Position numbers and translations under genes: made by a program | The notes under the pieces: model-generated | The model's database searches: none | The model's input: the letters and a program-made list of their open reading frames with translations, nothing else | Told to the model about the DNA's origin: nothing | DNA from: Rhodospirillales bacterium | GTDB lineage: Bacteria > Pseudomonadota > Alphaproteobacteria > JAJFIK01 | DNA: 64,000 nt | Reading direction: 5' to 3' | Assembly (NCBI GenBank): GCA_021775005.1 | Contig: JAJFIK010000036.1 | Location: 1 to 64,000 of the forward strand | Part shown: piece by piece, positions 5,690 through 16,966 of the stretch | Position numbering within the stretch: position 1 is the stretch's first letter | Layout: every line of letters begins with the position of its first letter

Positions 5690-5952
5690 CAGTCCTTGGC
5701 AATTCGGCGCAACGCCTTGAAGTAATCAGCAATGTCAGTGTCCGACGCGAGTTCAATGACATCCCCCGCGGAAACATCACGTTCGGCTTGGTTCAGCAAA
5801 GCGAGCAGTCGCGCTTTCTTTGCCTCCTTTTGTTGGTCGTGCCGAATGAGAGCGCGGACGTAGTCGCTCGCGTTAGAAAACATACCTGCTTTCACCCGCG
5901 CTTCGACCACCGCTCTAAGTTCATCCGACAGCGAGATATTCATCGTTGCCAT
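5689..5952 (-). CDS. parD: ParD-family antitoxin
   Basis: An 87-residue type II antitoxin. The N-terminal ribbon-helix-helix reads MATMNISLSDELRAVVEARV with the following FSNASDYVRALIRHDQ, typical of ParD/CopG proteins. The C-terminal half is charged and ends DIADYFKALRRIAKD, the part expected to clamp ParE. I chose the ATG at 5952 by homology; another ATG lies at 5943, and neither has a good Shine-Dalgarno sequence. Repeats in the upstream DNA (5996-6040) look like its own operator. Confidence 0.9.
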   Translation of the reverse strand: MATMNISLSDELRAVVEARVKAGMFSNASDYVRALIRHDQQKEAKKARLLALLNQAERDVSAGDVIELASDTDIADYFKALRRIAKD

Positions 5953-5995
5953 AGTCGTGACGTGCCGTTGCCGTAATGGGGTCAATCCCGAATAC

Positions 5996-6040
5996 TGTTT
6001 GCCTCACCATTTTGGCAAATATTGGCAAACATTGTCAAGG
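5996..6040 (-). promoter_or_regulatory. parDE promoter with operator repeats
   Basis: On the minus strand a TTGACA -35 box (6038-6033) is followed after 18 bases by CAAAAT (6014-6009), four of six matches to a -10 box. Between and over these lie two direct copies of TTTGCCAA, ten bases apart (plus-strand TTGGCAAAT at 6012-6020 and TTGGCAAAC at 6022-6030). An inverted half-site GTTTGCC lies at 5997-6003. Direct repeats spaced one helical turn fit cooperative ribbon-helix-helix binding, so ParD autorepression is the likely role. Promoter and repeats are seen; binding is inferred. Confidence 0.55.
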
Positions 6041-7402
6041 CTAGAAAAATGCACGTTCCTGGAAGATCGGCTCAATGGAGCCGCCCCATTCGTTCGCGAA
6101 GCGATCAAGCAGCGTGTCGGCTGGTGTCTTACCACTCTCCACAATGGCGCGCAGGGGCAAAAGGTACCCTGTTTCGTCGGTGCTTTTGTCTTTGCGATCC
6201 CGCGCCACAAGCCCTTGCCACGACAAGTCCACAATTTCACGAGCGATTTCTTGCGCACTTCGCCCGCCGATTTTCGCGGCCAATCCTTGCGTTGCCACCT
6301 CCCGGCGCAGGGCCTCGCGCTCTTCCAAAGACCAGTTCTTGGCCAGCTCCCAGGCCGCATCCATAGAGGGCTCATGGTAAAGCAGCCCAACCCAGAAGGC
6401 TGGCAAGCCGCAAATTTTATCCCACGGCCCGCCATCTGCGCCGCGCATTTCGATGAATTGTTTGACGCGGGCTTCGGGGAAAATTGTCGTCAGGTGATCG
6501 GCCCAATCGCTCAGCGTTGGTTTTTCGCCTTTGAGGGGGCCAAGCTCGCCCTTCATAAAGTCGCGAAACGAAAGTCCGGTGACGTCAATATACTTGCCAT
6601 CGCGATAGACAAAATACATCGGCACATCGAGGGCATATTCTGTCCACGCCTCATAGCCAAAGCCCTCCTCAAAAACGAACGGCAACATGCCGGTGCGGTC
6701 AGGGTCGGTGTCGGTCCAAACGCGGGCACGATAGGACACATAGCCCGTTGGTTTGCCATTCAAAAACGGCGAGTTGGCGAAAAGCGCGGTGGCGATGGGT
6801 TGCAGGGCAACGCCCAGGCGCATCTTTTTCACCATGTCCGCTTCGGATGAGAAATCCAGATTGACCTGAATGGTGGCAGTGCGAAACATCATGTCGCGGC
6901 CAAGGCTGCCTTTCTTGGCCATATATTCGCGCATGATCTTGTAGCGGCCCTTGGGCATGATCGGGGTTTCAGCGAGGGACCACTTGGGCGATGAGCCGAG
7001 CCCTAGGAACCCTGCGCCGATTTCCTCGGCCACTTCTTTGACTTGCGCCAAATGGGTATGAACTTCGTCGCAAGTTTGGTGGAGGTTTTCCAGCGGCGCA
7101 CCAGAAAGCTCAAACTGCCCGCCGGGTTCAAGGCTGACGGAGGCGCCATCATTGGTCAGCCCGATAATGTGCTCACCCTCAAACACACCCTGCCAACCAA
7201 AGCGCTGCATGCCTTCAAGCATGGCGCGCACTGATGCGGGGCCCTCATAGGGAAGCGGCTTGTTGCCATCCAGAAGGAAGCCAAACTTTTCGTGCTCGGT
7301 GCCAATGCGCCAATCTGCCTTTGGCTTTTCGCCTTTTGCAAAAAACCCAAGCAGATCATCATAGCTCTCGATCAGGCCTCCGCCCGACTGAGGTATCGAC
7401 AT
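6041..7402 (-). CDS. gshA: Glutamate-cysteine ligase
   Basis: GshA (453 residues) makes gamma-glutamylcysteine, the first step of glutathione synthesis. It is of the EgtA/plant-like GCL type common in alphaproteobacteria. Motifs include IGTEHEKFGF near residue 33, the substrate-site stretch DGASVSLEPGGQFELSGAP, MFRTATIQVNLDF, and IEMRGADGGPWDKICGLPAFW. The ATG has GAAGGA eight bases upstream. The stop codon is next to the parDE promoter, which lies between the two genes with no other space. Confidence 0.95.
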   Translation of the reverse strand: MSIPQSGGGLIESYDDLLGFFAKGEKPKADWRIGTEHEKFGFLLDGNKPLPYEGPASVRAMLEGMQRFGWQGVFEGEHIIGLTNDGASVSLEPGGQFELSGAPLENLHQTCDEVHTHLAQVKEVAEEIGAGFLGLGSSPKWSLAETPIMPKGRYKIMREYMAKKGSLGRDMMFRTATIQVNLDFSSEADMVKKMRLGVALQPIATALFANSPFLNGKPTGYVSYRARVWTDTDPDRTGMLPFVFEEGFGYEAWTEYALDVPMYFVYRDGKYIDVTGLSFRDFMKGELGPLKGEKPTLSDWADHLTTIFPEARVKQFIEMRGADGGPWDKICGLPAFWVGLLYHEPSMDAAWELAKNWSLEEREALRREVATQGLAAKIGGRSAQEIAREIVDLSWQGLVARDRKDKSTDETGYLLPLRAIVESGKTPADTLLDRFANEWGGSIEPIFQERAFF

Positions 7403-12902: not shown

Positions 12903-14429
12903 ATGGCCTATAAGTCCTTACGTGCCTTTATGGAGCGCCTGGAAGCCGACGGCGAGCTGGTGCGGGTGACCGAGCCCGTCTCCACTGCCCTTGAAATGAC
13001 CGAGATCCAGACCCGCCTGCTGGCTGAGGGCGGCCCGGCGGTGCTCTTTGAAAATCCCGTGAGCGCCGATGGCAGCCCTGCCGGGATGCCGGTGCTGGTG
13101 AACCTGTTTGGCACCGTCAAACGGGTCGCCATGGGGGTGACCATGGACGGCAAGGACCGCACCACATCCGCTGAGTTGCGCGAAGTCGGCGAGATGATGG
13201 CGTTCCTGCGCCAGCCGGAGCCGCCCAAGAGCATGAAGGACGCAGCTGAGATGCTGCCGCTGGCGAAATCCGTCATCGACATGCGCCCGGCCCATGTCTC
13301 AAATGCCCCGTGCCAAGAGGTGGTGCTGACCGGCGATGATATTGATCTGACTAAGTTGCCTATTCAAACCTGCTGGCCGGGGGAGCCCGCACCACTGATC
13401 ACCTGGCCGCTTGTTGTGACCAAGGGCCCGTCGGAGAAGGCTGAGGACAATTACAATCTCGGCATCTACCGCATGCAGGTGACGGGCAAGAACACCACGC
13501 TCATGCGCTGGCTCAAACATCGCGGCGGCGCGCAACACCATCAGCGCTGGGGCCAAGAAAAGCCCGAGCCCCTGCCCGTCGCCGTGGTGATCGGCGCGGA
13601 CCCGGGGACCATCCTGGCGGCGGTGACGCCGGTGCCCGACACTTTGAGCGAATACCAATTTGCAGGGCTTTTGCGCGGCAAGCGCGTGGAGCTGACTGAC
13701 GCCAAGACTGTTCCTCTGAAAGTGCCTGCAGAAGCAGAGATCGTCATTGAGGGGCATGTCTCCCTCACCGACTATGCCGATGAAGGGCCTTACGGCGATC
13801 ACACGGGATACTATAACTCCGTGGAACAGTTCCCGGTCTTCACCGTCTCCGCCATCACCATGCGCAAGAACCCGGTCTATCTCAGCACGTTCACCGGCCG
13901 CCCGCCGGATGAGCCGAGCATTTTGGGCGAAGCGCTGAATGAGGTGTTCATTCCACTGATTCAGCAGCAATTTCCTGAGATCACCGATTTCTGGTTACCG
14001 CCGGAAGGCTGCAGCTATCGCATCGCAGTGATCTCTATGAAGAAAGCCTACCCCGGCCACGCCAAGCGCGTGATGCTGGCGGCATGGTCGTACCTGCGCC
14101 AGTTCATGTACACCAAATGGCTTATTGTGGTGGATGACGACATCAATGCCCGCGACTGGAAAGAAGTGATGTGGGCGATCTCCACCCGCATGGACCCGGT
14201 GCGCGATGTCACCATGATTGAGAACACCCCCATTGATTATCTCGACTTCGCGTCACCCGAAAGCGGCCTTGGCGGCAAGATGGGCCTTGATGCCACCAAT
14301 AAACTCCCGCCTGAGACCCACCGGGAATGGGGCACGGAAATTCGCATGGATGCGGACGTGGTGAGCCGCGTGACGGAAAAGTGGTCGCGCCTTGGCCTGC
14401 CCGGCTCCGGCAAGCCGATTTGGCGCTAG
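12903..14429 (+). CDS. ubiD: 3-Octaprenyl-4-hydroxybenzoate carboxy-lyase
   Basis: UbiD (508 residues, near the family's usual 490-510) decarboxylates polyprenyl-hydroxybenzoate with prenylated FMN in ubiquinone synthesis. Conserved stretches include [17 protein letters not shown] near residue 180, [17 protein letters not shown] near residue 295 and [17 protein letters not shown], with the catalytic Glu/Arg region. The ATG at 12903 has AAGGGGAT just ahead. The flavin prenyltransferase ubiX is not in the window. It is followed by the AT-rich leader of the HipA locus. Confidence 0.95.
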
Positions 14430-14597
14430 TTCTTATTCAAAACTCGATACTTATGATATTTTGGGTTGATTTATTGCATAAAATATGCAACTTTTAATTT
14501 CTGGATCAAGAATATGAACTAAATTGCTGATAATTATATGTTTAGATCTATTTTTTGATACAAAAATGTAATAATTGCCATAAAAGTTCAAGTTCTT
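14430..14597. promoter_or_regulatory. AT-rich leader of the HipA locus
   Basis: These 168 bases are strikingly AT-rich compared with ubiD before them and contain short stretches such as TTGATTTATTGCATAAAAT. Inverted TTGCATA...TATGCAA motifs appear near 14473-14491 (ATTGCATAAAATATGCAA), a candidate operator for the HTH partner encoded downstream. The kinase ATG at 14598 has no convincing Shine-Dalgarno sequence. The abrupt base change marks a likely left edge of acquired DNA. Confidence 0.4.
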
Positions 14598-15902
14598 ATG
14601 TCAAATTATGAGAAAACCAGCCTCAGAATCCGCTTTGGGGACGAACTTGCAGGAACACTCACCAGTACGGAAGGCGGGGGGACAACCTTCACCTATGATC
14701 GCAACTATCTGCAATCAGGCGGGCAACCGATATCCCGCACACTTCCCATACAGGTTGAACGCCACGAATGGCGAACCGGACTCCTGCCCTTTTTTGACAA
14801 CCTTGTGGCGGAAGGCTGGCTAAAGAACGCACAGGCCCGGTATCTCAAAATCCGGCCGAACGATCGCTTCCGACTGCTTGCTCACTTTGGGTACGACTGT
14901 GCCGGAGCGGTCTGGGTCGACGTGCAGGATGACCAGCACACTGACCCTTTTGGCGAGGAGCTTCCCGAAAACATATCAAATCCCGAAGCGTGGATTGCGG
15001 CCCAATCGAGCCGCGCATCACTCTCCGGAGTTCAGCCGAAATTGTTAGCCAGACAAGAAGGGACAAAATTCCGGCCTGTAAGAAACAGAGAACTCAGCAC
15101 CCACATTGCAAAAATTGAGACGCACGACAGCAACCACCCCAACATTATAGAGCTGGAATACCTGACATCCATAGCAGCAAGGGACCTGCTACCTTCAGAT
15201 CAGATCGCCAAGATGGAAATCGGAACCATTCAGATTCCCACCAGCCAAAAGCCGAAAGCGGTCAAAGCTCTAATGATTGAGCGATTTGACAGGCGTCAAA
15301 GCCGCGCCAAACAAAGGGAAAACGAGGTAGAATCGATCAGGCGTCTACACTTCGAAGAATTCAACCAGCTATTCGGCCATATGTCGGAACAAAAGTACGA
15401 TAGCTCATACGAAAACCTGTGTTCCTATTTCAACGAAGCCAATAACGTCATTCCTGCTGAAAGGTTCAAGCTGGTAAGACGAATACTTGTAAGCCTACTT
15501 CTCGGAAACACGGATGCTCACGCTAAAAATTTTGCATTGTTTGATGTTGGACAGATCAGAACTCTAACGCCATCGTATGACCTGGTCGCATCGGCGGTAT
15601 ATCCACAATACGACGTCGTAGCACTTTCAATAGCCGGCGCAGATGAAATCAACATAACAAGCCTGAAGGCTAAGCATATTGCAATTTTTGCCCGGTCTAT
15701 TGGAATGTCGAACGATCAAATCGAAGAAATGGTTGAGGACATAAAACAGCGGCTACCTAAGGCGAAAGAAACCATTTCAAACTCGACAAATGGGCATCAG
15801 GCCCTGAAAGACCAGCTTTTGAGGATAATTGAAAAACGATGGAACGGAACATTCAGCTCAATTGGCAACTTCTTGTCGAAGAAGCAAAATACCGACGGAT
15901 AA
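14598..15902 (+). CDS. HipA-family serine/threonine kinase (toxin candidate)
   Basis: A 434-residue HipA-type kinase. E. coli HipA phosphorylates glutamyl-tRNA synthetase and induces persistence. The N-terminal subdomain (about 1-105) is present. It is followed by the phosphate loop region SRASLSGVQPKLLARQ near residue 138, the ATP lysine in THIAKIET, ERFDRR, the catalytic loop LLGNTDAHAKNFALFD near residue 309, and the metal Asp in TPSYDLVASAV. The gene precedes its HTH partner and overlaps it by 64 bases, the reverse of the classic hipB-hipA order. DNA is AT-richer than the flanks, suggesting transfer. The target is unknown. Confidence 0.88.
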   Translation: MSNYEKTSLRIRFGDELAGTLTSTEGGGTTFTYDRNYLQSGGQPISRTLPIQVERHEWRTGLLPFFDNLVAEGWLKNAQARYLKIRPNDRFRLLAHFGYDCAGAVWVDVQDDQHTDPFGEELPENISNPEAWIAAQSSRASLSGVQPKLLARQEGTKFRPVRNRELSTHIAKIETHDSNHPNIIELEYLTSIAARDLLPSDQIAKMEIGTIQIPTSQKPKAVKALMIERFDRRQSRAKQRENEVESIRRLHFEEFNQLFGHMSEQKYDSSYENLCSYFNEANNVIPAERFKLVRRILVSLLLGNTDAHAKNFALFDVGQIRTLTPSYDLVASAVYPQYDVVALSIAGADEINITSLKAKHIAIFARSIGMSNDQIEEMVEDIKQRLPKAKETISNSTNGHQALKDQLLRIIEKRWNGTFSSIGNFLSKKQNTDG

Positions 15903-16309
15903 GACAAGGGCTCTCTCAGGCGGATTTTGCAGAAACTGCAGGGGTTGCAAAAGGTACACTGTCGCGATTTGAAAGCGCCGAAAAGGGCGTACAACTTCAA
16001 TCAGCACTCCAAATCCTGACCCTGTTAGGGCTCACTGACAGTCGCTGGATCACATTTGACACCGAAAAGTGCTTCTATGACTTTGACCGGGGCATGGTTA
16101 CCTTCAAGGGCAAAAACGAGCAACAACAAGTCAAGTGCGCAATATCAGAAGAAGCACTAGAAGATCATTTTGGTTTAGGCGGTCGGACAAAGGCCATAAC
16201 CATATATAAGAAGCATACTGATGAAATCCACCACATTGCCCGGCGCAAGTACTTCGGCGAGCAAATCGAGCCAGATGGTTCAATCCTGATCCGTAGTCGA
16301 GACGTCTAA
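15839..16309 (+). CDS. XRE-type HTH protein fused to a DUF1488-like domain
   Basis: A 156-residue protein with two parts. Residues about 8-66 form an XRE/Cro helix-turn-helix (RRIRQGLSQADFAETAGVAK, then GTLSRFE), like HipB antitoxins. Residues about 75-156 match the pattern I know for the small DUF1488 proteins: VTFKGKN, VKCAISEEALEDHFG, HHIARRKY and EPDGSILIRSRDV. DUF1488 has no known function and usually stands alone. The start overlaps the kinase gene by 64 bases; GAGGAT lies upstream. The natural reading is antitoxin and repressor of the pair, with DUF1488 perhaps binding the kinase or a ligand; that role is inferred. Confidence 0.75.
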   Translation: MERNIQLNWQLLVEEAKYRRIRQGLSQADFAETAGVAKGTLSRFESAEKGVQLQSALQILTLLGLTDSRWITFDTEKCFYDFDRGMVTFKGKNEQQQVKCAISEEALEDHFGLGGRTKAITIYKKHTDEIHHIARRKYFGEQIEPDGSILIRSRDV

Positions 16310-16327
16310 CAAAAGGGGGACTCAGTA

Positions 16328-16966
16328 ATGCTTGCCAACATTGATCTTGTGGTTTGGGATTTCGACGGCGTCTTCGGCTTCAACTACGACGAAGAGGGCT
16401 ATTTCGTCTGGCGCAATGCGGCGCGTGATCTGAATATGGATGTGCGCAAGTTTCAGGTTTCGCTGTTTGGCAATGCGGAGTTCCGCAAAGTCCTCTCCGG
16501 TGAAATGGACTTGCTGGAAGAAGTGGGCAAGCTGCTGCCGGAATGCGGCTACCAAGGTACCGCGCAGGAATTTGTCCATTGGTGGTTCACCAATGACTTT
16601 GTGCCCAATGAGGGCATGCTCGACTTGCTGGCCGATGTGCAAGCGTACGGGCCGCGTTGCGTGTTAGGCACCAATAATGAGCGCCACCGCATGCGCTACA
16701 TCCTCGATGACTTCGGATTTGACGGGAAATTTGACAGCGTTTATGCCGCCGGCCTGATCGGCGTGGCCAAGCCCGACCATGGCTTTTTCGATCACATCAT
16801 GGACGCAGAAGGCGTGAGCGATAAATCCCGCGTGTTGTTTATTGACGATCACCCGGAAAACATCCACGCTGCCCACGCCTATGGCTGGCGCGGCCATCAG
16901 TTTGGGGATTTAAAGAAATTCCATCTCGGCACGGCAGATAAGCTGCGCGCGGCGATGGGGCTTTAG
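16328..16966 (+). CDS. HAD-superfamily hydrolase
   Basis: A 212-residue HAD-like phosphatase. Motif I is DFDGVFGFN near residues 11-19 (nucleophile Asp, second Asp present), the cap lies at about 20-95, motif II is at LGTNN, motif III Lys is in GVAKPDHGFF, and motif IV is VLFIDDHPENI. This is subfamily IA, close to YihX or epoxide-hydrolase-N-terminal type proteins. The substrate is unknown. The start has GGGGGA upstream, and the GC content returns to the normal level here. It is followed by a small ABM-like gene after 19 bases. Confidence 0.85.
   Translation: MLANIDLVVWDFDGVFGFNYDEEGYFVWRNAARDLNMDVRKFQVSLFGNAEFRKVLSGEMDLLEEVGKLLPECGYQGTAQEFVHWWFTNDFVPNEGMLDLLADVQAYGPRCVLGTNNERHRMRYILDDFGFDGKFDSVYAAGLIGVAKPDHGFFDHIMDAEGVSDKSRVLFIDDHPENIHAAHAYGWRGHQFGDLKKFHLGTADKLRAAMGL

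Follow-up and report, generated by a model that had tools for sequence, protein, structure and literature searches.

The closest described counterparts of the locus reported here are the type II HipBA systems of E. coli and S. oneidensis. Subclades with reversed hipAB order have been recognized in clades VI and VII, and HipE, encoded by hipEB, in clade IX (Gerdes et al. 2021, PMC8262856). The same study, whose text mentions no DUF, also described HipF and HipG modules with putative antitoxins that are HTH and Stl-like (PMC8262856).

Among stand-alone DUF1488 proteins, E. coli YrdB is encoded in the tsaC-aroE-yrdB operon, located beside rrnD and near def-fmt-rsmB, a gene neighbourhood that gives a weak hint towards translation. 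A DUF1488 structure has been known since 2006. In SCOP the domain forms a separate fold, which includes a left-handed beta-X-beta crossover (PMC2954204). It is frequent in integron cassettes of Xanthomonas (PMC12444791), and occurs in a protein from a low-oxygen-activated Burkholderia locus (PMC6127331); yrdB featured in a study of antimicrobial peptides (PMC4006907). DUF1488 is rarely named in the open literature, and none of these four papers assigns a function to it. We observed that many stand-alone DUF1488 genes lie 0.7 to 2 kb from contig ends (noted interval L150, 6767-7024), for which assembly breaks at rRNA operons may be the explanation, given the position of yrdB.

We analysed a hipA-type gene pair carrying this domain in the window, the whole 64,000-nucleotide stretch of DNA under study. 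Its features are as follows.

14430..16327, unstranded: inserted segment, from directly behind the ubiD stop codon to the start codon of a HAD-like gene (empty site in G001 and G002)
14430..14597, unstranded: presumed promoter and operator region, AT-rich, 168 bp (23.2% GC)
14598..15902, plus strand: predicted HipA-family Ser/Thr kinase, 434 aa (Pfam/NCBIfam, motif columns, AF2 model)
15839..15902, plus strand: conserved dual-coding overlap of kinase and partner, 64 nt (alignment with relatives)
15839..16309, plus strand: partner, HipB-like XRE HTH with DUF1488, 156 aa, putative antitoxin and autorepressor (Pfam, AF2 model)
15887..16036, plus strand: HTH_3 of the partner, residues 17-66 (Pfam E 2e-8, HipB fold matches)
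16049..16288, plus strand: DUF1488 of the partner, residues 71-150 (PF07369 E 1.4e-10, 2GPI fold match)

The kinase has full HipA length, and its catalytic motifs are intact. It contains Couple_hipA (PF13657, E 5.7e-22, 78.5 bits against a cut-off of 22.5) and HipA_C (PF07804, E 5.7e-39, 134.4 bits against a cut-off of 30.5). The glycine-rich loop (139-RASLSGVQPKL), Lys172, the catalytic motif (303-GNTDAHAKN), and Asp328 were all identified; the motif columns overall are invariant or nearly so among 14 aligned kinases, with S141, S143, G144, Q146, K148, K172, N304-D306, N311 and D328 strictly invariant. The first match in a sequence-profile search was S. oneidensis HipA. The AF2 model, built on the 14-kinase alignment (pLDDT 83), found its best fold match in E. 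coli HipA (Z 34.4, 367 residues, rmsd 3.0). The kinase is thus like those of HipBA in its architecture and catalytic motifs and in its fold (Z 31-34), and from its sequence it looks active. It is the most divergent member of its subfamily, with an end branch of 1.09 in the kinase tree, and given this divergence the window system may have drifted in function. A profile search of the same genome gave four HipA_C loci and a single DUF1488. Elsewhere in this genome, a HipA kinase with an HTH gene directly upstream, in canonical order (L004, 845-2268, G000:C60), offers a natural comparison.

The partner proved to be an XRE HTH joined to a DUF1488 domain, as the original prediction had proposed. Its DUF1488 region scored 41.5 bits in the match to PF07369 (E 1.4e-10, cut-off 22), covering profile positions 1-81 of 82. 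In the AF2 model of the partner (pLDDT 81), residues 66-156 matched the DUF1488 crystal structure 2GPI with a Z of 14.4 (88 of 91 residues, rmsd 1.9), at 17% identity in the aligned part. The HTH half matched the folds of HipB from P. fluorescens, S. oneidensis, L. pneumophila, and E. coli (Z 9-11). A sequence search of the window DUF1488 domain alone against PDB gave no match, and a whole-partner profile search recovered HTH proteins only; it was the fold comparison that linked the domain to 2GPI. YrdB and Shew_3726 (2GPI) share fold and Pfam family with the domain of the partner but, unlike the partner, are about 85-90 aa long and have neither HTH nor kinase.

In a single scan, 84,980 species genomes yielded six full-length HTH-DUF1488 genes elsewhere (L038-L043, with L039 being the same locus as L007), and both Pfam domains are present in all seven family members. 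The same kinase (41-46% identity) lies directly upstream in each of these six, making seven out of seven with the window; the association of HTH-DUF1488 with HipA is therefore recurrent and not confined to one genome. The full-length partner is rare, being found in 2 of 385 alphaproteobacterial genomes. Proteins encoded in the window flanks are absent from the flanks of L038-L043, which have no DNA similarity to one another, so the HTH-DUF1488 loci lie at different chromosomal places. Full-length HTH-DUF1488 had no match in a plasmid collection, which yielded HTH or DUF1488 parts only, and was not found in a phage collection. Viral contigs gave one partial match to the DUF1488 region (L107) and none to the single partner sequence used or to the kinase. 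PADLOC returned weak HTH and kinase matches only and called no defence system.

There are also 13 sister loci with the same kinase (about 40-43% identity), in which the partner ends at about residue 66, the end of the HTH. The partner had been predicted to follow the kinase with a 64-base overlap, which is exact at 15839-15902; genes of the remaining DUF1488-type loci overlap by 70-76 nt and those of most HTH-only loci by 52 nt. The overlap encodes both the kinase C-terminus (RWNGTFSSxGxxLS) and the partner N-terminus (MERNIxLNW), and this dual coding is conserved in both locus types. The HTH-only sisters have the reversed order too, which is thus independent of the DUF1488 tail and common to a kinase subfamily. 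The original prediction regarded this order as a mark of novelty, which is not supported, because reversed hipAB and hipEB are already published (PMC8262856) and the HTH-only relatives share both order and overlap. What is new is the DUF1488 tail on the partner of a reversed hipAB pair. In the kinase tree, twelve HTH-only rows formed one clade (100/100), with L058 apart. A single clade of the seven DUF1488-type kinases was not rejected (p-AU 0.52), and therefore DUF1488 could have been gained once in the kinase lineage; the tree fits either gain or loss of the domain. Another reversed pair was noted in L010 (1474-2475), L015, L029, L030, and L032 (1471-2457), in which a HipA-like kinase about 30% identical to that of the window precedes an HTH protein extended at its C-terminus by about 260 aa. 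This extension had no Pfam match in L010 and L032, the two that were scanned.

The gene pair has 48.7% GC and the upstream gap (14430-14597) 23.2%, in a window of 56.5%. These figures agree with the AT-rich locus and sharp edge after ubiD originally described, and comparison with both congeners shows that the edge is a real junction. In G001 and G002, a gene matching the window gene that starts at 16328 begins no more than about 8 bp after ubiD, and the segment 14430-16327 is absent. From this empty site in two congeners, the unit was either inserted here or lost there. Insertion in the lineage of the window is the simplest reading, and loss in the congeners is possible. As to the transfer suggested originally, insertion beside an empty site supports a horizontal origin, with loss from the congeners as a formal alternative. 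No integrase, insertion sequence, or terminal duplication was found at the segment edges. A 9-bp direct repeat, AGTTCTTAT (14428-14436 and 14591-14599), was considered as a target-site duplication of the whole segment and rejected, as its second copy lies inside the segment.

We then consider the DNA upstream of the kinase. In the relatives, a 16-bp palindrome with the consensus ATAAAATATATTTTAT occurs in up to three copies about 41 bp apart, at -14, -55 and -96 relative to the kinase start in L039, at -16, -57 and -98 in L041, and at -11, -51 and -91 in L022. The copy nearest the kinase overlaps or abuts its start codon. In 17 upstream regions, 26 sites matched at least 13 of 16 positions, compared with a mean of 0.78 and a maximum of 5 in dinucleotide shuffles; the consensus was taken by eye from the same regions, which somewhat flatters this count, and the fixed spacing was outside the search criteria. 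Predicted operators in this pattern fit what one would expect of an autoregulated toxin-antitoxin operon. They occur in HTH-only and HTH-DUF1488 loci alike; the HTH half is therefore their likely reader, and DUF1488 would be dispensable for this. The spacing is close to four helical turns in L039, L041, L042, and L022, which suggests cooperative binding on one face of the DNA.

In the window, the palindrome of the relatives was not recognised between 14430 and 14597 (best match 11/16, shuffle p 0.84). The window HTH differs from the relatives at the expected recognition helix (VAKGTLSRFE versus VSxPTxSRFE), and a changed operator is therefore plausible. The best palindrome in the window, TTGCATAAAATATGCAA at 14474-14490, is a weak candidate that does not rise above chance (42 of 100 shuffles). 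A promoter and terminator scan gave no more sites than shuffles did, and none upstream of the kinase.

Set against HipBA, the window and its relatives thus share a partner whose HTH half matches HipB and, in the relatives, palindromic predicted operators. They differ in the reversed gene order with an overlap of 52-76 nt across the subfamily, in the predicted operator over the kinase start codon of the relatives, and, for the window partner, in a folded DUF1488 where HipB has a short tail. The pair resembles reversed hipAB and hipEB (PMC8262856) in having the kinase first, the HTH second, and N-subdomain-1 present, a likeness judged by order and domains. As in HipF and HipG, the HTH partner bears an additional domain that might act as a trigger sensor, whereas DUF1488 has its own fold (PMC2954204) and is not Stl.

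A partner scan revealed that two unrelated families, Fic/DOC and NTP_transf_8 (PF12281), also have members ending in this DUF1488 subfamily. The NTP_transf_8-DUF1488 proteins are about 450 aa long and come mostly from Bradyrhizobium and other alphaproteobacteria (L009, 430-1767; L012, 448-1827; L045, 3897-5303; and about 35 more). The Fic/DOC-DUF1488 proteins have several architectures, one with DUF4172, and come mostly from Acidobacteria (L046, 3411-5270; L048, 82-2019; L051, 3405-5228; L069, 3546-5234; L094, 3861-5258; and others). Sorting of the loci by motif and BLAST gave 39 NTP_transf_8 and 16 Fic rows, a few duplicates included, with further Fic cases recognized by Pfam. In these proteins the domain is on the enzyme itself and not on a repressor partner, and there is no HipA kinase in the same gene; the C-terminal subfamily is the same as in the window, up to 69% identical to the L038 domain. 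The original view that DUF1488 normally stands alone was right for the most part, with the HTH partners, Fic, and NTP_transf_8 proteins as further settings, and the proposed tie of the domain to toxin-antitoxin-type enzymes was strengthened by the Fic and nucleotidyltransferase fusions. In L046, on a betaproteobacterial contig, 7.6 kb contain a canonical HTH-HipA pair, a Fic-DUF1488 gene and, farther along, an HTH gene with a gene bearing a Fic-type motif, HPFANGNGR, behind it (noted intervals 570-2218 and 5880-7009), an arrangement resembling a toxin-antitoxin island.

The subfamily core, F-x-G...C-x-I-S-x-E-A-L-x-D-H-F...A-R-x-K-Y...S-V-L-I, is common to the HipB, Fic, and NTP_transf_8 proteins. 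PF07369 matched 66 of 398 Pseudomonadota genomes and the fused-subfamily profile 2 of the 398 at 1e-12; of 199 genomes from the same phylum as the Acidobacteriaceae MAG that carries L051, the latter matched 3 at 1e-8. By sequence, the fused subfamily can be told apart from ordinary DUF1488 proteins that stand alone. The domain of L038, a HipB-type protein, is 68-69% identical to the Fic-borne domains of L046 and L044, and 48% identical to the nearest HipB-type domain, that of the window. A single clade of HipB-type domains was rejected (p-AU 0.003 and 0.007) in trees that are weak, having fewer than 100 columns. The main cause of rejection is the Fic protein L094, which nests beside L040 (97/83); with L094 allowed into the clade, it was not rejected (p 0.21). 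This supports at least one exchange of context between Fic and HipB proteins, and a second is suggested only by identity.

On the basis of these comparisons, the locus is probably a toxin-antitoxin operon of the reversed-order hipAB type, with DUF1488 as a plug-in module added to the partner. The kinase would be a growth-arresting Ser/Thr kinase. By analogy with HipBA biology, the HTH half of the partner would dimerise, bind the operators, and repress the operon, and the partner would hold the kinase inactive until release, as in known HipB-HipA complexes. The gene overlap may couple translation of the partner to that of the toxin. Once released, the kinase would phosphorylate a target; the known target of HipA is an aminoacyl-tRNA synthetase. 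DUF1488 would not be needed for basic pairing or DNA binding, because it is absent from sisters that keep the kinase, HTH, overlap, and operators. The domain may instead have a common role in protein docking or signal sensing, and so govern the timing of enzyme activity. Such a role is the most likely one because the same subfamily tails Fic and NTP_transf_8 proteins, and it is read from the company that the domain keeps. In its broadest form, which we propose tentatively, the subfamily may be a shared trigger or docking module plugged into several unrelated effectors of post-translational modification or nucleotide transfer, namely HipA kinases (through their HTH partner), Fic AMP-transferase-like enzymes, and NTP_transf_8 nucleotidyltransferases. 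It would recognize one signal or target, cellular or derived from phage, for all of them and thereby set the timing of action.

The main rival to the plug-in reading is that DUF1488 is a passive structural tail, serving dimerisation, stability, or as a protease handle, in which case the hipAB module would be an ordinary one that receives no extra input. The HTH-only sisters, in which the basic circuit does without the domain, are in keeping with such a tail, and flexible or degradable C-termini are common in HipB antitoxins. We nonetheless regard it as rather unlikely, since the core of the domain shows strong conservation from HipB to Fic and NTP_transf_8 proteins, and its exchange between contexts suggests a specific shared function.

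We find it improbable that the pair is a one-operon switch outside the toxin-antitoxin class, in which a signalling kinase works with a transcription-factor partner and DUF1488 senses the state of the cell. To our knowledge, toxicity has not been proven for all HipA-like kinases, and E. coli YrdB is a housekeeping-type gene product in its operon, both of which would suit a switch of this kind. Against it, the patchy distribution (2/385), the empty site in the congeners, and the lack of a shared flank among the compared loci are typical of mobile toxin-antitoxin modules. An error of gene calling or assembly behind the DUF1488 match or the fusion, for which only the 17% identity to 2GPI could be cited, is ruled out to near certainty by the recurrence of the fusion in seven independent assemblies, the Pfam matches in all seven, and the Z of 14.4.

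For the plug-in reading, the HTH-only sisters provide a natural control, with the same kinase, overlap, and operators and without DUF1488. The wider lead beyond the gene pair is the shared DUF1488 module. Its presence on a HipB-type repressor, on Fic proteins, and on nucleotidyltransferases, with exchange between contexts, means that an orphan domain can be studied as a testable module, and raises the question of which binding need would be common to the repressor of a toxin kinase, a Fic enzyme, and a nucleotidyltransferase.
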